Assembly (NCBI RefSeq): GCF_012027495.1
Contig: NZ_SNUK01000003.1
Location: forward strand, 310,001 to 374,000
DNA: 64,000 nt
Origin: Thermococcus sp. JdF3
GTDB taxonomy: Archaea; Methanobacteriota_B; Thermococci; Thermococcales; Thermococcaceae
Direction of reading: 5' to 3'
A program made the position numbers and the translations under genes. Below the pieces are notes generated by a model that searched no databases, was not told the DNA's origin, and saw only the letters and a program-made list of their open reading frames with translations. Positions within the stretch are counted from its first letter, which is position 1. Each line of letters opens with the position of its first letter. Of this stretch, positions 44,103-62,574 are shown piece after piece.

Positions 44103-44801
44103 TCACACCACCGCCGCAATCTCTACTATCAGCCCGACCTTCGGCTCGACACGGAACGGGATAATCTTCTGAAACAGTCCCTTGGCGTTGTTGTACTTGA
44201 CTATCGTGGCCGAGTTCTTCAGGTCACCACCGAACACCTTGACGCTCAGACGGACGAGCATGCTTGCAGCTTCCTCAAGGACGAAGAGTGAGTCCCTGTC
44301 TATCTCCTCCGTGTTCGCGGTGAGGATGATGACCTTATCCAGGGAGGCCATTTTCTTGACGTACAGCAGAAAATCCCTAACCGCACTCGGCTCCTGCTCG
44401 CGGGAGAGGAGAGATGAGAACGAATCAATTATCATTACATCGGGCTCCCACAGCCTGGGCTCGCCAAACAACCTGCTGAGGAACTTCCTTTTCTCACTGA
44501 CACCGGTGAGAAGGGGGTACAGGGAGACAAACATGAGCTTCTTCCTGATTAGAAAAGGGATTATATCGTAGCCGAGGGACTCCATCTGCTTGATGTACTC
44601 AACCGTGGTGTACTGGCTGGAGATGTAGCTGGCGGTGTAGCCGTTCATGAGAAAGCCGTAGAGGAGGCGCTGGACGAAGATGGACTTACCGCTACCCCTG
44701 TCTCCCTCGATGAGCATAATCGTCCCGGCGGGGATGCCGCCACCGAGACGCCGGTGCAGTTCATCGCCCTTGAGCTCGATCTTGAGGAGTTCCTCGACCA
44801 A
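44103..44801 (-). CDS. arlH: Archaellum regulator ArlH (FlaH)
   Basis: A 232-residue RecA-like ATP-binding protein of the KaiC group that binds ArlI and forms the motor ring. Walker A is EGDRGSGKSIFVQR (about residues 33-46); Walker B MIIDSFSSLLS (about 122). Hydrolytic residues look incomplete, as usual for ArlH, which binds ATP but hydrolyses little. Start choice: TTG 44801 with GGTGGTG upstream; GTG 44813 would add four residues. It overlaps none of its neighbours but is one base from arlI. Confidence 0.9.
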   Translation of the reverse strand: MVEELLKIELKGDELHRRLGGGIPAGTIMLIEGDRGSGKSIFVQRLLYGFLMNGYTASYISSQYTTVEYIKQMESLGYDIIPFLIRKKLMFVSLYPLLTGVSEKRKFLSRLFGEPRLWEPDVMIIDSFSSLLSREQEPSAVRDFLLYVKKMASLDKVIILTANTEEIDRDSLFVLEEAASMLVRLSVKVFGGDLKNSATIVKYNNAKGLFQKIIPFRVEPKVGLIVEIAAVV

Positions 44802-44850
44802 GATGACCACCACCGTCTCGCGTTATTTTATCCGGCGAATACTACAGTTT

Positions 44851-51048: not shown

Positions 51049-51732
51049 TCACTGGAGCTCCATAACGGCCTCAGTGTAGGTGCTCGGGGTGGTGAACTCT
51101 ATAACACCGGGAGCGCCGAACTCCGGAACGACCTGACCGGTTATCTTGATTCCCGGCTTAATACCGTAGCCAAAGACACCGGTATTCTGGTCGGTTCCAA
51201 CCTTGACGGTGAGGACAACGAGATCTCCCTGGCTGAGGGTCGGGTAGTCGTCGCTGAGGCTACTGTCGGAGTCCTGGAGGACTATGATACCAAACTCGGT
51301 GGCGTTGTTTACTATGTTACTCCACGCGGTTTGGGTGGTGTCAAAGATGTCCGCAACAGGGCCTGTGGTGAAAGCGTCGTTAGTCTCGCTGGGGCCACCT
51401 TTGTACTTCAGAACAGCCTCAAGAACACCGTTGCTGAGAACAAGCTTGGTGCTACTGAGGTCAATTCCGGCGCTGCCGGCGTTCGGGCTGACGTAGATGG
51501 CAAGCTGCTGGATGTATTCAAGGCTACCGTTCGCCTTACCAACAACCCTCTCGACCTGTATGCCGCTGGCAACCTCCTGGGTGGTCTCCCTGCCCGTGCT
51601 GGAAGCCTTCTGCTGCAGGAAGCCGCTCGTGTTGATCAGCACGGCCGCCGCAACAGCGGCAACCAGCACCATGGCAATGAAAACTATCAAGGTCCCAATA
51701 CCAACCGCACCTTTCCTTGTCCTGGCTTTCAT
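51049..51732 (-). CDS. arlB1: Archaellin ArlB1
   Basis: A 227-residue archaellin, promoter-proximal and so probably the first made. Signal MKARTRKG precedes [25 protein letters not shown]; mature Ala at +1. Globular domain with [14 protein letters not shown] and end [21 protein letters not shown] 51732 is preceded by CCAGGGGGTGCATGGAGA. The five archaellins share the helix but differ in the surface, suggesting filament segments of different composition. Confidence 0.93.
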
Positions 51733-51780: not shown

Positions 51781-51839
51781 AAATATAAAGGCCTTTTTTG
51801 TTCTTAGTAGTGTAGGTGGTTGTGTAGGTACATGTGTAG
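51781..51839 (-). promoter_or_regulatory. Archaellum promoter with three 12-bp-spaced CTACACA motifs
   Basis: On the minus strand TATA is CTTTATATTT (51781-51790). Upstream are three copies of a 7-mer: CTACACA (51833-51839), CTACACA (51821-51827) and CTACACT (51809-51815), each exactly 12 bp apart, on nearly the same face of the helix. The pattern resembles the repeated TACA-type sites bound by the archaellum activator EarA in Methanococcus maripaludis. The EarA-like gene is at 56538-56867. Confidence 0.7.
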
Positions 51840-51876
51840 GTACTGACCACGATGGCCCCGACGAACCATCGCCAAG

Positions 51877-51886
51877 GTATATAAAG
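51877..51886 (+). promoter_or_regulatory. TATA box of the large CARDB protein gene
   Basis: GTATATAAAG at 51877-51886 with a G-rich downstream flank; predicted start near 51908, ten bases before the ATG at 51918 with GGTGAT inside the short leader. The EarA-like repeats lie 38 bp upstream, so they could act on both divergent promoters. Confidence 0.6.
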
Positions 51887-51917
51887 GGGACAAGGGCATA
51901 AGGTTACGGTGATTCCC

Positions 51918-54900
51918 ATGGGAGGAAGGCAGAGGGCAATAGTGCTGGGATTGATACTGTTGCTCCTCGGCAGTGGTATCCCCACCGTCATGGGTGTGAG
52001 TTACGCATACAGCGAGGCCAGCAACGTCCAGCTCTTCCTCTGGCCGTCAGGCAGACTCGTCGCCCCCAACCAGACGGTGACGATTGCGGTCGTGCTCTGG
52101 AAGCCCGGCGAGGGTGGAGTAGCGAACGCAACGGTAACCATCGAGGTCGAGGACAGGCTCTACAACGTCACCACCAACGGGGACGGCTTCGCGAGCCTGA
52201 ACCTGACGTTCACTGAGGAAGGTGGCTATGAAGTCAGGGCCCTCTACGGTGAGGTCTCAACGGGCACGTGGATTGACGTTAAAGCCGTCCCCGAGTACCT
52301 TTTCATCGAGAAAGACCTCGAGCTCCAGGTCAACAGGGCATACACCGTCGAGTGGAACCTCGTAACTCCGTACCTTTTCACGCCCTACAGCGGAACCGTC
52401 AACGTGACGGTGCTCTTCAACGACAGAGCGGTTGAGAGCCGTCCCATCAACGTCACCGGTGGAAAGCTCAGGCTCAGCCTTCAGTTCAACGAGACCGGAA
52501 CTGGTTCGATACTATTTGACGGCAGGACGGCTTCATACTTTGAGGTTCGCAGCAGGGTAATCCTCGCCAAGCTCATGGCACCGGACAGGGCATACGTCGG
52601 CCAGAACGTGACGGTTCACATCCTGGCCCTGGACGCCGGAAGAAACACCCCCTACAGTGGAAACGTCACGGTTAAGACTATCTCCTTCAACGGCACCGAG
52701 GAAACCGTTGACAGATTCACCATCGAAATCGAGAACGGCTACGGTAACTTCACGGTAACCGTCCCCGAATGTGACCATCTGACTGTCTCTGTGGAGCTGG
52801 GCAGGGGGCCGAGCCACACAATATGGGTCGAGAGGCCCGCTCAGGCACCCACGAATGGGGGCAACGGCAACGAGACGCCGCTAATATTCACGATAACTCC
52901 AGACAGGGTGCTCGCCGAGCCCGGGCAGAGCATCTCATTCGTCGTCAACACGACCAGAGAGGGAACCTATAACATGACCGTCACCTGGTACGGCTGGAGG
53001 TTCACGAGCTGGGACGTCTGGGACGGGGAAACCAATACCACCCTCGTGACCTTCAACGGCACCAAGAGCGTCCTCAAGAGGATAAAGGTCCCTGAGTGGG
53101 CCTACTACGGCGAAATCAGGATTGGAAACGCAGTGGCCAGAGTTTACACCCTAAGGCCGAGCGTCTGGGCCGACGCCTGGGTTAACCTCACCTACAGCCC
53201 GGAGATAGGGCTCGAGACAGGAGACGTCATAATGGTCAGTGGCGACCTCAAGAACAAGACCAAGGACTGGTTCTTTGAGTGGGAGGAGTTTTACAGGGGT
53301 CTCGTCAACGAGACCGTGCACATATTCACCCCCTGGGGCGTTAAGGCCGTGAAGACCGGGGAGGATGGCAGGTTCAGCGCCAGCATTCCGGTTCCTTCGG
53401 AGAGACTGCCCGACATGGTCTGGGACAGGCACCCGGAGGTTCTCGTCATCCACAGGTCGGGAGCGTACGCGGACAGGACCGTTGACACGCCAAGGGGCAG
53501 GGTCTTCGTCAACATCACCTCCGACGGGGTCAGGATAAACGTTGAACCCGACAGCGACTGGAGGTATTACCCGAACCTGACGACCCCAACGGTGGTCGAG
53601 TTCGGCCAGTCCTTTGACTGGTACTACATCGGGAACGTCACATCCGTCTACGTCAACTCGACGAACGCCACGATTCCGGGCAACATAAGCGCCGGGGTTT
53701 ACATGTTCAAGATCCTCCCCAACCACTGGCTCTGCCTCAAGGAGCCACATGGGACCTCCTGCGGGGCGGGAAGCCACAGCACCGAGAGGGTTTACTACGT
53801 GACGGGCGGGCTTGAGCTCCCGGACAGCGCGACCTACAGCGGTGGGGAGCTCGAGGTTCCGATAAAGCTCCCGGGAAGGGGCGTGTTCTACTACTCCTAC
53901 GACTCAAACGGCCAGAGGCACTACGGGGTAGGGTTCACAGATGAGAACGGAAGCGGAGTCGCCAGGATAGAGGTAGGGAACCTCCCGCTGGGAGGACCGG
54001 AATGGCTCATCATCAAGTTCGGCTTTGTGAGCGACAGGGGATCCCTCTTTGACATTAACTGGAACCTAATTGTCAGAAACGAGGCTGACGTCCTTCCGCC
54101 GGCGATTACCGCGGACGTAACGCCGGAGGTTCAGGAGGTAGGAAAGAACGTGACGGTTTACATAGACGTGAGGGACGATGGAAAGCTCAGGCAGGTCAAC
54201 TTCACGATAACGAACGTGACCGACATCATCAGGGCGGAAAGCTTCAACGTATCGACGAGCGGGTTCGTGCACAGGTTCAACTTCACCGTAAGGGGCCTCG
54301 AAGACTACATCCTGAACGTTACGGCGGTTGATGAAGCCGGCCACGTCTCGACCAGGCTGGTCAACTTCTACGGCAAAGCCGTCGAGACGAGGGAGCTCAA
54401 CCTCACCGCCAACGAGACCCACGAGCTCAACGTGGCCAACCAGACCCGGATAGTGGTTGCCCCAGCCCAAAACGAGAGTGTTGCCATGAACATCACCGTC
54501 GCCTCGGCCGTTGAGAACGAGAGCGCGAGGGTGAAGATGACGGCCAAAGGCTACGAAGACCTCAAGTACGTTAAGGTCGAGACCAACGGGACGGTAGAGT
54601 ACTCGTGGGTAATCCTCAACCTGACCTACAGCGACGAGATGCTCAGGAGGCTCGGCATAAGCGAGAACGCCGTGACGCTCCTCTACTGGAACGGAAGCGA
54701 GTGGATTGACCTCAGCAAGCACGTCGGAGAGACAATTCCTGACAACTCGCCCTACGGCAACATAACGGTCTTCGGCTTCGGAAGGGACCCGGTACACAAC
54801 TACGCCTGGGCCAACGTGAGCCACCTCAGCGAGTACAGCCTGGGCGTCATGCTGCCGGACCTGAGGGTGGTCGGGATAAGCGCGGAGAACGCTGTGGCCG

Positions 54901-55472
54901 GGAAGGAGACAGAGGTGAGCGTGACCCTGGTCAACAATGGCGGGGCCGTTGATGGGGAGTTCACGGTGTCCCTCTACGCAAACGACACCCTCGTGAAGAC
55001 CGAGAGGGTCAGCGGGATCGGCGCCGGAGAGGAGAAGACGGTGAAGTTCACGTGGACGCCGGACAAGAGCGGCACCTACATCCTCAGGGCCACCGCAGAC
55101 GGAGATGACGCCATCGTCGAGAGCAACGAGACAAACAACGAACTGTCCGCTGAGGTTCGGGTCACCCCCGCGCCGAAGGTGAGCAAGGGCACAGCGGTCA
55201 CACGTATGAACTACATCGGCTACATGTACTACCACATGCTTTCGAAGAGGTTTGAGGAGCTGTACAACGAGTCCCTGCGGAAGGGCGTGGACAATGAGAC
55301 CCTAACCGCGGCCCTGGAGCACAGGAAGCTGGCCGAGGAGTACTACGAAAAGGCGGAGGAGTTCGGCCCGGTGCTCCAGAACCTCAACAACCCGCAGATA
55401 CTCGCCCCGCTCAGGAGGGCGTACCTGGAGATGCTGAAGGCCGTCAGGATACTGGAAGAGGCCCTCGGATGA
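51918..55472 (+). CDS. Giant secreted CARDB-domain protein, 1184 residues
   Basis: An exported protein of 1184 residues with signal peptide IVLGLILLLLGSGIPTVMG. The rest is beta-rich: several Ig-like or adhesion-type domains, a stretch that contains DVTPEVQEVGKNVTVYIDVRDDG, a region of many N-X-S/T sequons, and a CARDB domain near 970-1080 (DLRVVGISAENAVAGKETEV, then ETNNELSAEVRV). The C-terminal 90 residues are helical and charged, with no membrane anchor or CGP-CTERM signal. ATG 51918 is preceded by GGTGAT. Being divergent from the archaellum operon and near its control repeats, it may be a surface or filament-associated protein; function not established. Confidence 0.72.
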   Translation: MGGRQRAIVLGLILLLLGSGIPTVMGVSYAYSEASNVQLFLWPSGRLVAPNQTVTIAVVLWKPGEGGVANATVTIEVEDRLYNVTTNGDGFASLNLTFTEEGGYEVRALYGEVSTGTWIDVKAVPEYLFIEKDLELQVNRAYTVEWNLVTPYLFTPYSGTVNVTVLFNDRAVESRPINVTGGKLRLSLQFNETGTGSILFDGRTASYFEVRSRVILAKLMAPDRAYVGQNVTVHILALDAGRNTPYSGNVTVKTISFNGTEETVDRFTIEIENGYGNFTVTVPECDHLTVSVELGRGPSHTIWVERPAQAPTNGGNGNETPLIFTITPDRVLAEPGQSISFVVNTTREGTYNMTVTWYGWRFTSWDVWDGETNTTLVTFNGTKSVLKRIKVPEWAYYGEIRIGNAVARVYTLRPSVWADAWVNLTYSPEIGLETGDVIMVSGDLKNKTKDWFFEWEEFYRGLVNETVHIFTPWGVKAVKTGEDGRFSASIPVPSERLPDMVWDRHPEVLVIHRSGAYADRTVDTPRGRVFVNITSDGVRINVEPDSDWRYYPNLTTPTVVEFGQSFDWYYIGNVTSVYVNSTNATIPGNISAGVYMFKILPNHWLCLKEPHGTSCGAGSHSTERVYYVTGGLELPDSATYSGGELEVPIKLPGRGVFYYSYDSNGQRHYGVGFTDENGSGVARIEVGNLPLGGPEWLIIKFGFVSDRGSLFDINWNLIVRNEADVLPPAITADVTPEVQEVGKNVTVYIDVRDDGKLRQVNFTITNVTDIIRAESFNVSTSGFVHRFNFTVRGLEDYILNVTAVDEAGHVSTRLVNFYGKAVETRELNLTANETHELNVANQTRIVVAPAQNESVAMNITVASAVENESARVKMTAKGYEDLKYVKVETNGTVEYSWVILNLTYSDEMLRRLGISENAVTLLYWNGSEWIDLSKHVGETIPDNSPYGNITVFGFGRDPVHNYAWANVSHLSEYSLGVMLPDLRVVGISAENAVAGKETEVSVTLVNNGGAVDGEFTVSLYANDTLVKTERVSGIGAGEEKTVKFTWTPDKSGTYILRATADGDDAIVESNETNNELSAEVRVTPAPKVSKGTAVTRMNYIGYMYYHMLSKRFEELYNESLRKGVDNETLTAALEHRKLAEEYYEKAEEFGPVLQNLNNPQILAPLRRAYLEMLKAVRILEEALG

Positions 55473-56537: not shown

Positions 56538-56867
56538 TCACATGAACCTCCGGTAGTAGCGATAGTACTCCTTAAGATAATCCACGACCTTTTTACCGTA
56601 GTCCGTCAGACGGTAGTACTTAAAGCCATTGTTTGAGACTTCCTCCACAAGACCCAGGTAAACAAGGGAACTCTCTCCGTTGTACCTGTTACCCAAACCA
56701 ACCAGTGCCCCCCTAACGTTGGATGGATCAGAACTGACGACCCTGGCGATCTCAGAAAGGTACGTCGCTGACGGATATATTTCGCTCAGGTACATCAGTA
56801 TCTTCTTCCTGAGTTCGCTACGATGAAGGGAGCGCAACACCTGCGGATCCACGATTACTGTGTCCAT
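56538..56867 (-). CDS. earA: EarA-like archaellum transcriptional regulator (winged helix)
   Basis: A 109-residue protein with a winged-helix DNA-binding fold: IVDPQVLRSLHRSELRKKILMYLSEIYPS, then TYLSEIARVVSSDPSNVRGALVGLGNRYN, with the recognition helix in the middle, and a C-terminal DYGKKVVDYLKEYYRYY segment. Size, sequence style and genomic position match EarA, the euryarchaeal activator of archaellum genes. ATG 56867 follows GGGAGGGGGGAGT. It precedes the methyltransferase gene in the same transcript. The motif upstream of the arl and che promoters is the likely target. Confidence 0.72.
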   Translation of the reverse strand: MDTVIVDPQVLRSLHRSELRKKILMYLSEIYPSATYLSEIARVVSSDPSNVRGALVGLGNRYNGESSLVYLGLVEEVSNNGFKYYRLTDYGKKVVDYLKEYYRYYRRFM

Positions 56868-57244
56868 ACTCCCCCCTCCCAAAGTCGGTGGTTCCAGGAT
56901 CAATCACTGTGATTATAGCAAGGCAGCCACTGAAACCCCTCTGGATATCAATGCCTCCATGTGCAGGGGATGGTTGTAGCCCCGTATATTAGATGTGAGT
57001 TGTAGAATATATAACGTTTTTGGTTTATCCCTGGGTATAATTCCGCATAAATTTGCCCCATTTGTAGAATCCCCACCCAAAAATTGTATAAATCGGGCTA
57101 ACGGACAAAGAATCCAATTGATTGAAAATTATCCAACAGACGGCAATCCGGACAAAGGTTTTCGCCCCCTCCAGCCGGAGAACATTCATAAAATCTTAAA
57201 TACCATCGAAACAAATTGGAGTACGTTGAAGTCAGGTGAGAGTA
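56868..57244. promoter_or_regulatory. 377-base divergent intergenic region between earA and the coiled-coil gene
   Basis: No gene is evident. Near the earA start, a perfect palindrome AATCAC-T-GTGATT (56902-56914) overlaps a minus-strand TATAAT, a possible self-operator. Further right are the TATA elements GAATATATAACG (about 57004-57015) and ATTGTATAAATC (about 57083-57094), and TCTTAAATACC (57194-57204), the last giving a start near 57230, about 15 bases before the ATG at 57245. TTGTAG occurs three times (near 56969, 57000 and 57061), a weak relative of the CTACAC motif. The middle part is AT-rich and non-coding. Confidence 0.5.
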
Positions 57245-58324
57245 ATGCTGGTCGAAGTGACAATCACCGCGGCGGTCGCAGTGGTTCTGGCGTATTACGT
57301 CAAAGACGTCACCAGCAAAGTTCTGGCCAGGCACTTCGAGCTGAAGGAAGAACTCGGGGAGCTGGAGTCAAAATTCTCAAAGCTCAAAGAGGAGCTTGAA
57401 TCGGAGATCCGGGAGGTTCGAACCAACGTTTCTTCCGGGGAGGAGGACGTACGCGGGGAGTTCATCCAGAAGCTGAACGAACTCCAGAAGAAGCTCAGGG
57501 GAGTGGAAAAGGGGCTCAGGGACCTCCAGAAGCTCGAAACCAGGGTGGACTACGAAATCGGCAGCCTGAAGAGGGAGCTGGACAGAACTGGGCGCAGGGT
57601 GGAGGAGCTGGAAGACGCGGTGATGGCCACAAAGGACGAGCTTAAGGAGGAGCTTAAAAGGGAGATTCTGGCGGAGCTTGAGGAGGAGATAGAACACCTG
57701 GAGGACGTCATTGAGAGACGGAAGCAGTCCGAAGTTGAGGAGTTCCTGGAGATTATAACGGCCGCCGTGACGCTTCAGCCGGAGAAGCTCAAGGATGGAA
57801 TGGCCGAGGCGAAACGGGCCCTCCTCTCAATGCGGGATATAGCCAAGGTCTACGTGCTCACCGGGCAGGGGCAGAGGGAGTTCCGGGGGTTGAAAGAGAA
57901 CCTCATAGAACTCCTCAAGAACCTCCGCAAACTCGCGGTTGTCTCGGTTCCGGATGAGAGCGTTTACTCCACTTTCAACGAGATAGTGGTTCGCGTGAAG
58001 CGCCTCGATCTGCCAATGAGGGTTGTGAGGGACGGCAAGGAGAAAGAGCTGAACCCGGAGAAGAGCTTTATTTACATCCACCGGGCGGTCTACGAGCTGG
58101 CAGGGGAGCTGGACAGGATAGCAGAGGGACTCCAGGAGCCGATACCGGTAACCCCGGTTGAGAAGGAATTCTACGAAAAGCTGCGGCACCAGTTCGAGGA
58201 GCTGCAGAAGCTGGAAGAACAGGTCCAGAGGCTCATGCTGAAGCTCGGCGCGGAGAAAGAGGAGACGGAAGACACGAAAGACCGGGACGTTGAAGACCTG
58301 CTGAAAGAGCTGAACCTGCTGTGA
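57245..58324 (+). CDS. Membrane-anchored coiled-coil protein, 359 residues
   Basis: An unrecognised protein. Residues 5-20 (VTITAAVAVVLAYYV) are a single membrane helix, followed by about 150 residues of heptad-rich charged coiled coil (ELKEELGELESKFSKLKEELES to ELEDAVMATKDELKEELKREILAELEEEIEHLED). A globular part (about 165-330) and a final coiled-coil, acidic tail (DVEDLLKELNLL) follow. Membrane-tethered coiled coil with a cytosolic tail suggests a structural or signalling scaffold. Between earA and the chemotaxis genes, it converges on cheW with nine bases between stops. ATG 57245 after AGGTGAGAG; GTG 57236 is part of the binding site. Confidence 0.65.
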   Translation: MLVEVTITAAVAVVLAYYVKDVTSKVLARHFELKEELGELESKFSKLKEELESEIREVRTNVSSGEEDVRGEFIQKLNELQKKLRGVEKGLRDLQKLETRVDYEIGSLKRELDRTGRRVEELEDAVMATKDELKEELKREILAELEEEIEHLEDVIERRKQSEVEEFLEIITAAVTLQPEKLKDGMAEAKRALLSMRDIAKVYVLTGQGQREFRGLKENLIELLKNLRKLAVVSVPDESVYSTFNEIVVRVKRLDLPMRVVRDGKEKELNPEKSFIYIHRAVYELAGELDRIAEGLQEPIPVTPVEKEFYEKLRHQFEELQKLEEQVQRLMLKLGAEKEETEDTKDRDVEDLLKELNLL

Positions 58325-58333
58325 GTCCCGGGA

Positions 58334-58774
58334 TTAGAACTCCTCCCCCAGGAGTTTGTCAAGGTCGACCATTATGAGGAGCCTCTCTCCATCGTTTATC
58401 TTCGCTATGCCCTTTATGTAGCGGATGTCCACGCGGCTTGTGAGGGTCTTGGGTGGCTGGTCGATCTGGTCGTCGGTCAGGGTTATGACGTCCGAGACGG
58501 AGTCGACTATAATGCCGATAATCTCGTCCTTAACCTCCGCGATGATTATCTTCTTCGTGGAAAGGTCCTCGTCCATGTCGTAATACCCGAGGAGTTTCTT
58601 GAGGTTGACGACGGTGGTGATCTGACCGCGGAGGTTTATGACGCCCTCAACGAAGTCCGGGGAGTTGGGCACGCGCGTTATGGGCATCATTTCCTTGATT
58701 TCCCTGACCTTCGAGATATCCAGACAGAACTCCTCGTTTCCAACCATAAAAGCCACTACCTGAATTTCGGCCAT
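58334..58774 (-). CDS. cheW: Chemotaxis adaptor CheW
   Basis: A 146-residue CheW: VVAFMVGNEEFCLDISKVREI, ITRVPNSPDFVEGVINLRGQI, and the conserved IGIIVDSVSDVITL segment. It couples chemoreceptors to CheA. ATG 58774 follows GAGGTGAATGG; the gene starts five bases after the chemoreceptor stop, so receptor and adaptor are co-transcribed. CheA is in the separate plus-strand operon. Confidence 0.95.
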   Translation of the reverse strand: MAEIQVVAFMVGNEEFCLDISKVREIKEMMPITRVPNSPDFVEGVINLRGQITTVVNLKKLLGYYDMDEDLSTKKIIIAEVKDEIIGIIVDSVSDVITLTDDQIDQPPKTLTSRVDIRYIKGIAKINDGERLLIMVDLDKLLGEEF

Positions 58775-58779
58775 TCACC

Positions 58780-60006
58780 TCACCTCCGGGCACTCCTAAC
58801 GTTTTCCAGCAGGGTTCTGGATTCGTCTATAGATTCCTCAAGGGCCTTAAGACCCTTTCGTATTTCATCCAAACGCAGCTGGAGCGTTGAGAGGAAGTCC
58901 ACGAGGGGCAGCATCACGTCCGAGATGTCGTTCTGGATGGCGTAAACACCGTCTATGGTGTCCATGAGCATCTGCACCGACTGGGCCTGTCCGTCTATGC
59001 TGTCCGAGAGGTCTTTTATCATGCCCGCGGTCTCATTGGCGCGCCTGGCGATGTCGTCAAAGGCGGCTATGAGTTCCTGAACGGCATCCTTTATTTCCTC
59101 CGTGACACGGAACTCCTGTTTGATGGAGCTGACGACGGTGTCTATGCTCTCCTGCATATCCCTGATGAGTTCGGTTATCTGGTCGGTGGACTTCTTGGAC
59201 TGGTCGGCGAGCTCACGGATGTTCTCTGCAACAACCGCGAAGCCCCTGCCGTGCTCCCCGCTCCTGGCGGCCTCAATGGCGGCGTTGAGTGCCAGAAGGT
59301 TGGTCTGGTCAGCGATGCCCCCTATGACCTCAACTATCTCCCCGATGCGCTTGGAGTGCTCGACGAGAATGGAGACCGCCCGCTCCATGTCCTGGTTAAC
59401 CTCTGTTATGCTGGCCACGTTCAGGGCAACGTTGTCGGAAATCTTCTTACCCCTCTCGGCCATGTCAGCAGTTTCGAGGGCGTAGTCGGTCAGCGCCTGG
59501 GCCTGCGTGTTCATCTCCTCTATCCCCGCGGTGAGGGTCTGGATGTAGTCCCCCAGCTCGGCGATGCTGGAGCGCTCCCTCTCCACCAGACTGGCCAGGG
59601 AATCGGGATCCGCCGAGGCATCCATCTCCAACATGGGGAGGAGGGAGGAAATCTTTTCCCGGACGTTCTCAAGATTTTTCAGGGCGGTATCCATCCCCTC
59701 GAAGGAACAGGGCTGTGAAACAGTCACCCTGCGTTTTCTTAGGGCCTCAGCCTTGTGTTCGATGGAGATGAGACGGGCTGCAATTTCCTCATCGATGCCC
59801 CCTACATCGGGATGTCTTCCCTCCAGGATGTCCTCAACCGCCCCGAGAATCCGGAGGGAGTTATCCCTCGTTTTTGAGACGTACGCGCCAACGATTGCGG
59901 ATGCACCCAGACCCAGAATGAGACCCACGGATGGAGCCACCAGGGTGCCGGCGAGGGTTATCAGAGGGATTGAGCCAACTGCCGTTATGGCAACGATGCG
60001 GTTCAC
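58780..60006 (-). CDS. Methyl-accepting chemotaxis protein without a sensor domain
   Basis: A 408-residue chemoreceptor. Two adjacent membrane helices lie near residues 3-40 ([35 protein letters not shown]), with hardly any exterior loop. A linker (about 45-170), then the signalling coiled coil, whose tip [37 protein letters not shown] interacts with CheA/CheW. With no ligand-binding domain it probably reads the membrane or cytosol, for example temperature, energy or partner proteins. Start chosen at GTG 60006 with GGGAGGTG upstream; GTG 60015 is closer to the AG run. It precedes cheW. Confidence 0.9.
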
Positions 60007-60050
60007 TGGCCACACCTCCCAGCAGCACTATTTAACCATGGAGACAGGGA

Positions 60051-60072
60051 GATAAAAGAGTTTCGCATGTAG
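60051..60072 (-). promoter_or_regulatory. Chemoreceptor-cheW promoter with one CTACAT motif
   Basis: On the minus strand TATA is CTCTTTTATC (60051-60060). CTACATG (60066-60072) lies upstream, its first base 15 nt before TTTTAT. The same 15-nt distance is seen at cheR. A second AT-rich element (TTAAATAG, about 60029-60036) is nearer the gene but would be too close to give a leader. Confidence 0.55.
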
Positions 60073-60135
60073 GTAATAACCCTTAATACGCGTTACAATA
60101 ATAACCGGGGAAGTCGTAACAATATACCTATGCAC

Positions 60136-60169
60136 CTACACAACCATCTACACACAAAGATTTTTTATG
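60136..60169 (+). promoter_or_regulatory. cheR operon promoter with two CTACACA motifs
   Basis: CTACACA at 60136-60142 and 60148-60154, 12 bp apart as in the archaellum promoter; the seven bases between (ACCAT context) are also almost the same as there (ACCAC). TATA is TTTTTTATG (60161-60169), 15 nt from the start of the nearer motif. The transcript would start near 60190, within or just after a stem CAAAAGC/GCTTTTG (60171-60190), about 60 bases before cheR. Confidence 0.65.
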
Positions 60170-60248: not shown

Positions 60249-61112
60249 ATGATGGATGTTAAGGATCCCGGCTATATAAGGATCAAGCGGGAGCTGTTCC
60301 GCCACCTCAAAGTTAGTAGTGACGCCTACAAGGACACGTACCTCGTGAGACGCATACGGGCAAGGATGAGGAAACTGGGAATCGCAAGCTACACCGAGTA
60401 CTACAGACTTATAAAGGCAAACAGGAGCGAGCTCGACGAGCTCCTGCTGACCGTGGCCATCAACGTCACGGAGTTCTTCAGAGACCCGGTGGTCTGGAAA
60501 ACCCTCGAAAAGAAAATCCTGCCCGAGCTGGTCGAGTACAAGCGGGAGATTCACAGCAATTCCCTCAAGATATGGAGTGCGGCCTGCTCAACGGGACAGG
60601 AGCCGTACTCGATCGCCATGACACTGTACGAGACGCTGGGCGAAAACCTCGACGGATTCCGGGTCAGCATACTGGCGACGGACATAGACAGGGAGGCCCT
60701 GTCGGTGGCCATGAAGGGAGAATACCCCGTGGATGTCATTGAGAAGCAGATACCCAGGAGCATGATACCGAAGTACTTCACCCGCGTAAGCGACGAGCGG
60801 TACAGGGTCTCACCGAAGATAAAACGCCTGGTCAAGTTCCGGCAGTTCAACCTCTTCAGCACCACGTACCCGAAGGGGTTCGATATTATATTCATCCGCA
60901 ACGTGCTCATATACATAAAAAGGGACGCCCAAGAGGAGATATTTGCCAAACTTTATGATTCGCTGGAGGATCACGGGTATCTCGTACTCGGCAAGACCGA
61001 GACGATCCTCGGCAATGCCGCCAGGATGTTTAGGTTGTATGACCTCGTTGCAAGGATCTATCGCAAAAATCTGGAGGTGAAAAAACATGGCAAAGGTTTT
61101 GGTGGTGGATGA
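60249..61112 (+). CDS. cheR: Chemotaxis protein methyltransferase CheR
   Basis: A 287-residue AdoMet-dependent enzyme that methylates glutamates on chemoreceptors. N-terminal helical domain (YLVRRIRARMRKLGIASYTEYY), then the catalytic domain with IWSAACSTGQEPYSIAM, ILATDIDREALSVA, and FIRNVLIYIKRDAQ. The start ATG 60249 follows GAGGTAA; the next codon is also ATG. The 3' end overlaps cheY by 26 bases, showing tight operon packing. Confidence 0.95.
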   Translation: MMDVKDPGYIRIKRELFRHLKVSSDAYKDTYLVRRIRARMRKLGIASYTEYYRLIKANRSELDELLLTVAINVTEFFRDPVVWKTLEKKILPELVEYKREIHSNSLKIWSAACSTGQEPYSIAMTLYETLGENLDGFRVSILATDIDREALSVAMKGEYPVDVIEKQIPRSMIPKYFTRVSDERYRVSPKIKRLVKFRQFNLFSTTYPKGFDIIFIRNVLIYIKRDAQEEIFAKLYDSLEDHGYLVLGKTETILGNAARMFRLYDLVARIYRKNLEVKKHGKGFGGG

Positions 61113-61449
61113 TGCCGCTTTCATGCGCATGTTGCTGAAGAAGATACTGACCCAGGGCGGCCACCAGGTCGTTGGGGAGGCAGGCAACGGAAAGGAAGCG
61201 GTCCAGAAGTACCAGGAACTGAAGCCGGACGTGGTCACCATGGACATTGTCATGCCAGAGATGGACGGCATTACGGCGGTTCAGGAGATAAAGAAGCTCG
61301 ACCCCAACGCCAAGATAATAATGATCACCGCGGTGGGGCAGGAAGGAAAGGTCATGGAGGCCCTCAAGGCAGGGGCTTCGGGGTACATAGTCAAGCCGTT
61401 CCAGGCCCCCAAGGTGCTCGAGGAGATAGCCAGAGTACTGTCCAGCTGA
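61087..61449 (+). CDS. cheY: Chemotaxis response regulator CheY
   Basis: A 120-residue single-domain receiver. Acidic pocket VVDDAAFMR (about residues 7-9), phosphorylated Asp in VVTMDIVMPEMDG (about 55), Thr in MITAVGQ (about 83-87) and Lys in YIVKPFQAP (about 105). It carries the signal from CheA to CheF/archaellum motor in archaea. ATG 61087 follows GGAGGTGAAAAAAC inside cheR. Confidence 0.96.
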   Translation: MAKVLVVDDAAFMRMLLKKILTQGGHQVVGEAGNGKEAVQKYQELKPDVVTMDIVMPEMDGITAVQEIKKLDPNAKIIMITAVGQEGKVMEALKAGASGYIVKPFQAPKVLEEIARVLSS

Positions 61450-61461
61450 GGGTGGATTTTG

Positions 61462-62574
61462 ATGCCACTGAGCTCCCCCTCTCGAAAAATCCGGGTACTG
61501 GTCGTCGACGACTCCGCGTTCATGAGAAAGATACTCCGGGACATCATAAATTCGGATCCCGAGCTGGAGGTCTGCTGCGAAGCCAGGGACGGTATTGAGG
61601 CCATCAGTCTGGCAAAGCTCCACAGGCCGGACGTCGTGACGCTTGACATTGAAATGCCCAAGATGAACGGCCTCGACGCCCTCCGGGTTATAATGAAGCA
61701 GACCCCCCTCCCGGTCATAATGGTGAGCGCCCTGACCCAGGAGGGCGCCGAGGCCACCATCAAAGCCCTGGAGTACGGGGCGATAGACTTCATTCCCAAG
61801 CCGAGCTCCTCCATCTCCATCAACATGAAAGAGATGCGGGACGAGATAACGGCGAAGATCAAAGAGGCCGCCAGAGTTCCAAGACGGTTCCTGGAGCTCA
61901 GAAGAATGAGACTGCTCAGGTCACAGAAGGTCAAAACCAGAAAACCCAGTGTCCCGGCAAAGACCGTTGTCACCATAGCGTCCTCCACAGGGGGCCCGCA
62001 ATCTCTGCTGAGGATCTTTCCAAAATTCCCCGAGAACCTGAAAGCCGCGATACTGCTCGTCCAGCACATGCCACCCGGATTCACAAAGTCCTTTGCGAAG
62101 AGACTCGACAGTCTGAGCAGGATAGACGTCAAAGAGGCGGAGGACGGGGATACAATAGAGGAAGGGAAGGCCTACGTGGCGCCCGGGGATTACCACATGG
62201 AGGTGCAGATGAGGGCAGGAAAGCCCGTCATAACGCTCAACAAGAAACCGAAAATACACGGCGTGCGGCCTGCCGCCGACCCCATGATGATAACCGCCGC
62301 GGAGGTGTTCGGGCGCAGGACGGTCGGTGTCGTCATGACCGGAATGGGCAAGGACGGTGCCCAGGGAATCATTGCCATCAAGAAGAAAGGGGGCATCACG
62401 ATAGCGCAGGACAGGGAAACCTCAATAATCTTCGGAATGCCCAAGGCAGCCATAGAGACCGGCATGGTGGACCATGTCGTCCCCCTGGATAAAATCGCCG
62501 AGACTGTGGTGATGGCAGTAAACAAAGTTAACCGGGGTGGTGCCGGTGGAAGATCTTTCGCAGTATCTAGATGA
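61462..62574 (+). CDS. cheB: Chemotaxis protein-glutamate methylesterase CheB
   Basis: A 370-residue protein with receiver (1-130: [28 protein letters not shown], phospho-Asp near 66) and a C-terminal methylesterase domain (about 175-360) with the catalytic triad Ser in [10 protein letters not shown], His in VQHMPPGFT and Asp in [11 protein letters not shown]. It removes methyl groups and deamidates glutamines on chemoreceptors, giving adaptation. ATG 61462 follows GGGTGGATTTTG; cheA starts inside its last codons. Confidence 0.95.

Follow-up and report, generated by a model that had tools for sequence, protein, structure and literature searches.

Results

The window, that is, the whole 64-kb stretch of DNA analysed here, carries the archaellum (arl) operon and the chemotaxis genes, and earA is encoded between them (Table 1). 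An uncharacterised coiled-coil protein of 362 aa is encoded between earA and cheW. The hexamers upstream of the first archaellin gene belong to the same motif class as the EarA sites described in PMC10665913. They sit in a divergent intergenic region (51810-51908), and the gene on its other side, which encodes a CARDB-domain surface-type protein of 1187 aa, could share the array.

Table 1. Features of the window and promoters with an exact intergenic array in the same genome (positions are those of the window)
Feature	Position	Strand	Basis or remark
First archaellin gene (arlB0) of the arl operon	51049-51732	-	N-terminus of archaellin type, location with respect to the array, published work
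Array of three hexamers (12-bp period) before the first archaellin gene	51810-51839	-	Last one 26 nt from TTTATAT
CARDB-domain surface-type protein	51909-55472	+	1187 aa
earA, proposed array reader	56538-56903	-	PF07381, 8.6e-34; single copy
Coiled-coil protein, uncharacterised	57236-58324	+	362 aa
cheW	58334-58774	-	Pfam
Chemoreceptor gene, divergent from cheR, cheW next	58780-60015	-	PF00015, 6.7e-39
Lone hexamer site (CTACATG) of the chemoreceptor promoter	60066-60072	-	15 nt from TTTTAT (60052-60057, -)
Degenerate third 12-bp unit of the che array, ATACCTATGCAC	60124-60135	+	Intact in G030, G072, G001 and G076
Proposed EarA array before the che operon: two TACAY hexamers with a 12-bp period (CTACAC...CTACAC)	60136-60153	+	Kept in 30/32 cheR promoters
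TATA-like element, che promoter	60160-60168	+	TTTTAT 60163-60168, 15 nt past the second hexamer start; by inspection
cheR	60249-61112	+	PF01739, 2.4e-56
cheY	61087-61449	+	Pfam
cheB	61459-62574	+	Pfam
cheR-cheY-cheB, target operon of the che array	60249-62574	+	Pfam
Array promoter, cheR	own genome		Exact intergenic pair
Array promoter, arl	own genome		Exact intergenic pair
Array promoter, 421-aa chemoreceptor (L001)	own genome		Exact intergenic pair
Array promoter, ODP-family gene then cytoplasmic chemoreceptor (L116)	own genome		Exact intergenic pair
Array promoter, PilJ-domain chemoreceptor (L118)	own genome		Exact intergenic pair
Array promoter, dCache-HAMP receptor start (L122)	own genome		Exact intergenic pair

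The initial annotation had described two CTACACA motifs 12 bp apart before cheR, and both are present on the forward strand (60136-60142 and 60148-60154, 12 bp from start to start). Its statement that the motif begins 15 nt from TTTTAT at both the cheR promoter and the divergent chemoreceptor promoter is exact for each. The array context that it held to be common to the che and archaellum promoters, CTACACAACCAYCTACAC, is identical at the two; this 18-bp sequence has two exact copies in the window, at these promoters, and none in 100 shuffles. With a mismatch-tolerant script a degenerate third unit (ATACCT, 60124-60129) was recovered, so that the che array consists of three units. Two features of an EarA-type promoter are found before cheR: adjacent TACAY hexamers repeated with a 12-bp period, and their position directly upstream of the BRE/TATA (13-15 nt to the TATA).

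Taken singly, the heptamer CTACAYR shows no enrichment in the window (17 observed versus 12.2 expected), whereas the pair CTACAYN6CTACAY occurs four times versus 0 expected. Two of these pairs overlap at the arl promoter, one lies at the che promoter and one within an arl gene (44103-44813). The spacing is specific: in two genomes a gap of 6 yielded 11 and 14 pairs, compared with 8 and 6 for the runner-up gaps, which mostly follow the three-base rhythm expected of coding sequence. Chance placement of the array is ruled out by the pair counts, the specificity of the 12-bp spacing and the third unit.

On the other strand, the single CTACATG reported before the chemoreceptor gene of the window was confirmed. 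The block around it, ATTAYCTACATNCGAAA-TCTTTTATC, is retained in several Thermococcus; in the G022 group the hexamer reads ATACAT instead of CTACAT. This promoter has one hexamer in place of adjacent repeats, and its TATA distance and conservation fit those of an EarA-type promoter. Because the single heptamer is not enriched, the lone site carries little weight by itself, and it may be due to chance. A function of this site is plausible but weakly supported on its own; it is the weakest case, and from the sequence alone we would not assign this receptor gene to the EarA-regulated promoters.

In the genome as a whole, the exact pair occurs 11 times versus three for a reversed control pattern. 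Four of the 11 are within genes and seven are intergenic, in six promoters, and the genes behind every one of these serve motility or taxis: arl, che and four chemoreceptor loci (Table 1). Seven chemoreceptor signalling domains score above the Pfam cut-off in this genome, two of them cut at contig ends so that their promoters lie outside the sequence. The L122 receptor is cut by a contig end ahead of its signalling domain. An array with one mismatch, CTACCCCCCACCCTACAC, accompanies one more receptor (C1:287730).

At the che, most receptor, ODP and AAA-ATPase promoters the promoter-proximal hexamer starts 13-15 nt upstream of a TATA-like sequence picked by eye. At the arl promoter the distance is 26 nt, one 12-bp unit further (26 = 14+12). 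The array of the ODP promoters is inverted with the TATA distance unchanged, also in genus g3, which we take to be very probably Pyrococcus. The array of the 421-aa receptor is inverted as well and stands about 59 nt from the TATA, an exception to the rule that the sites adjoin the TATA; its mode of action may be different.

Three other groups of genes have the array in their neighbourhood. An ODP-family gene (metallo-beta-lactamase fold) followed by a cytoplasmic chemoreceptor gene (L116:1501-2335 and L139-L144) is preceded by a conserved array, inverted and adjoining the TATA, and the two genes are likely to be a sensor pair for oxygen or redox taxis. A Vps4-like AAA ATPase gene (PF00004, Vps4_C; L068:2596-2613 = G022:C1:1640595, L072, L078, L168 = G024:C1:996966) adjoins a probable serS. 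Its array is intact in the G022/G025/G018 group, in G030 and in G024 (TK1139 type) and was found in none of genus g3, and we regard the ATPase gene as a candidate new motility-related gene. The array is also found near a small DUF5658 membrane-type gene (L085:2524-2541, L166:1501-1518) with no known motility role. In G024, which we presume from gene order to be very probably T. kodakarensis KOD1, arrays precede cheR, the ODP gene, the AAA ATPase gene and a dCache-type receptor gene.

cheR was detected in 33 of 94 Thermococcales genomes; the match in G063 (33% identity) was left out as a distant homolog, which leaves 32. A scan for named cheR loci returned one MAG only. All 30 cheR promoters read (best matches, from several genera) have a 12-bp-period TACAY-like array adjoining the BRE/TATA, and the array stands upstream of cheR in 30 of the 32 cheR genomes. 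In G019 and G030, whose che operon begins with cheY, an array stands before that gene. The mean conservation of the two hexamers over 19 non-redundant cheR promoters is 1.66 bits per base, versus 0.35-0.38 for the flanks. The array of the che promoter is genuine and conserved, and it very likely has a function. A promoter duplication confined to close relatives is unlikely: the cheR array is kept across several genera while the flanks diverge, and it recurs at unlinked receptor genes. The cheR promoters of G002 (L135) and G093 (L136) were inspected and have no array; both genomes have EarA and an arl-type array. These two represent divergent genera, in which EarA control of che may have been lost or never gained.

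EarA was detected in 72 of the 94 genomes, including 31 of the 32 with cheR (Fisher p = 3e-4, uncorrected for phylogeny). This co-occurrence does not separate EarA from other factors that follow motility, because EarA-positive genomes usually carry arl too. Counted over all 94 genomes, the array pattern occurs 438 times versus 173 for the control pattern. It is mainly the genomes with a close EarA that account for the excess (309 versus 82); EarA-negative genomes show some excess too (72 versus 41, coding and intergenic pooled). These EarA-negative genomes are not decisive as a clean negative control: most of them are without che too, and two keep arrays. One of the two, G076, has cheR with an intact three-unit array (L138:6394-7338), no neighbouring che genes were seen and EarA was not detected; its che locus looks like the relic of a lost motility system. 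The other, G049, in which EarA was likewise not detected, keeps the array at the AAA ATPase gene; it is a draft genome near G057, which has EarA.

A second EarA paralog as the array reader was rejected: the genome has no other EarA-family gene. A search of solved structures gave no match for EarA. The phylum search for EarA-family proteins reached a set of genomes without Methanococcus, where EarA was first studied. EarA-like domains inside longer frames of 435-470 aa (G073:C1:1416892, G077:C1:2174727, G085:C22:1159) represent a distinct EarA-family architecture.

Discussion

The motif at the che promoters has already been published, with no function assigned. In T. kodakarensis expressing gyrase, fla is up-regulated about 54-fold and che about 6-fold, and the receptor genes TK0156 and TK2147, the AAA ATPase gene TK1139 and the FprA-type gene TK1605 rise together with them (PMC8643681). 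The gyrase-responsive genes share a 23-bp motif, in most cases about 35 bp before the TSS. In that study, a FIMO search gave no further high-scoring copy of the motif; its function was called "unclear", and EarA goes unmentioned (PMC8643681). The same genes are down-regulated in histone mutants (PMC8155482). Reverse-complemented, the 23-bp consensus reads ACCTACATAAVCASVTACACAAA and consists of two of our hexamers at 12 bp, and the two best matches of TTTGTGTABSTGBTTATGTAGGT in the window are the che and arl promoters, with three mismatches of 23 each. Our genome-wide list (arl, che, dCache receptors, the ODP-receptor pair and the Vps4-like AAA ATPase), compiled before that paper was known to us, is essentially the same set. 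Literature searches gave no paper linking the 2021 motif with EarA and no che expression data for an earA deletion. What is new, as far as the literature shows, is the assignment of the motif to EarA, together with the geometry of the promoters and the conservation of the motif across Thermococcales.

EarA is needed for archaellation in P. furiosus, where A(C/G)(C/G)TACA(T/C) repeats precede arl; the authors propose that TFB is recruited to a weak BRE there, and they call for a test of a wider EarA regulon, naming chemotaxis (PMC10665913). In M. maripaludis, loss of every EarA site has the same effect as deleting earA, and a mutation in the BRE removes the need for EarA (PMC5512572). We propose that 60124-60153 is an EarA-type activator array and that EarA co-activates the motor, the relay and the sensors, a reading to which we give a probability of about three in four. 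EarA would bind TACAY hexamers that recur with a 12-bp period just before the BRE/TATA, and the same array stands before the arl operon, the che operon and most chemoreceptor genes. Since the array is common to these genes, one activator would co-express motor, relay and sensors. It is close to certain that the motor and taxis genes have a common regulator; the shared regulon put forward in the initial annotation is supported by the conservation, by the genome-wide placement of the array and by the published co-expression in T. kodakarensis. As to which protein reads the che array, the hexamer and spacing seen at the EarA-dependent arl promoter, the single EarA gene of this genome and the presence of EarA in 31 of 32 cheR genomes argue strongly for EarA. 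On these sequence comparisons, EarA is likely to bind the receptor arrays as well as that of che.

A different factor may read the che and receptor arrays, perhaps sharing the arl array with EarA. The persistence of arrays in G076 and G049, where EarA was not detected, would agree with this, but the hexamer, the 12-bp period and the flanks match the EarA-dependent arl promoter, and a second EarA-family gene is absent from the genome; we consider such a factor rather unlikely. It is far less probable that the motif is mainly an element responsive to DNA topology or chromatin, as the 2021 gyrase study would suggest, and not an activator site. The opposite responses of these genes to gyrase and to histone mutations fit that reading. 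However, arl with the same array depends genetically on EarA in P. furiosus, arl of M. maripaludis depends on its EarA sites, and a hexamer in which each base is conserved and whose distance from the TATA is constant looks like a protein site; topology could also act through EarA. That the repeats are merely part of A/C-rich promoter sequence is scarcely credible, for although single heptamers are not enriched in the window and 4 of 11 genomic pairs lie inside genes, four window pairs stand against none expected, the hexamers carry 1.66 bits against 0.35 in the flanks, and the six promoters with intergenic arrays all belong to motility or taxis genes.

If EarA is the activator of these promoters, it most likely recruits TFB to a predicted weak BRE, a step that would extend from arl to the che and receptor arrays. 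A bolder form of the proposal has three parts: EarA would be the master regulator of the whole Thermococcales motility-taxis programme (arl, che, most chemoreceptors and the ODP oxygen-sensing receptor pair), the uncharacterised Vps4-like AAA ATPase (TK1139 type) would, by its place in the regulon, be a new component related to the archaellum or to taxis, and DNA topology and histones would influence motility via EarA at these promoters. We regard this combination as worth entertaining but doubtful.

One of the earlier studies asks which genes besides arl are regulated by EarA (PMC10665913), and the other describes genes that are expressed together and share an orphan motif (PMC8643681). Read as one EarA array, the two give a concrete regulon that is testable in a tractable strain. 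If this is true, a euryarchaeon co-expresses its motor, signalling relay and sensors via one small activator. The promoter code, namely 12-bp units, orientation and distance from the TATA, is offered for finding further motility genes.

Among known systems, CsmR of Haloferax volcanii is likewise a small winged-helix regulator of archaellum-based motility, but it is non-homologous to EarA, belongs to another lineage and couples motility to cell shape (PMC13286277). The fla promoter of M. maripaludis has several 6-bp EarA sites directly upstream of the BRE, as here, and activation is thought to act by helping TFB at a weak BRE (Ding et al.; PMC5512572). The EarA sites of that organism differ in their consensus, TACATA, and in lineage, and che genes were outside the scope of that paper. 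The 23-bp motif of T. kodakarensis covers the same gene set (fla, che, receptors, ODP and AAA ATPase), but it was read as possibly topology-sensitive, without a link to EarA and in one species (Villain et al. 2021, PMC8643681). The EarA sites of arl have the same TACA(C/T) hexamer, in up to three adjacent repeats just upstream of the BRE/TATA, in the same genus-level lineage (Stoeckl et al. 2023, PMC10665913). Those sites were described for arl only, 9-11 bp from the BRE, whereas the arrays of the che and receptor promoters stand one 12-bp unit nearer to the TATA and are inverted at the ODP gene and at one receptor gene.
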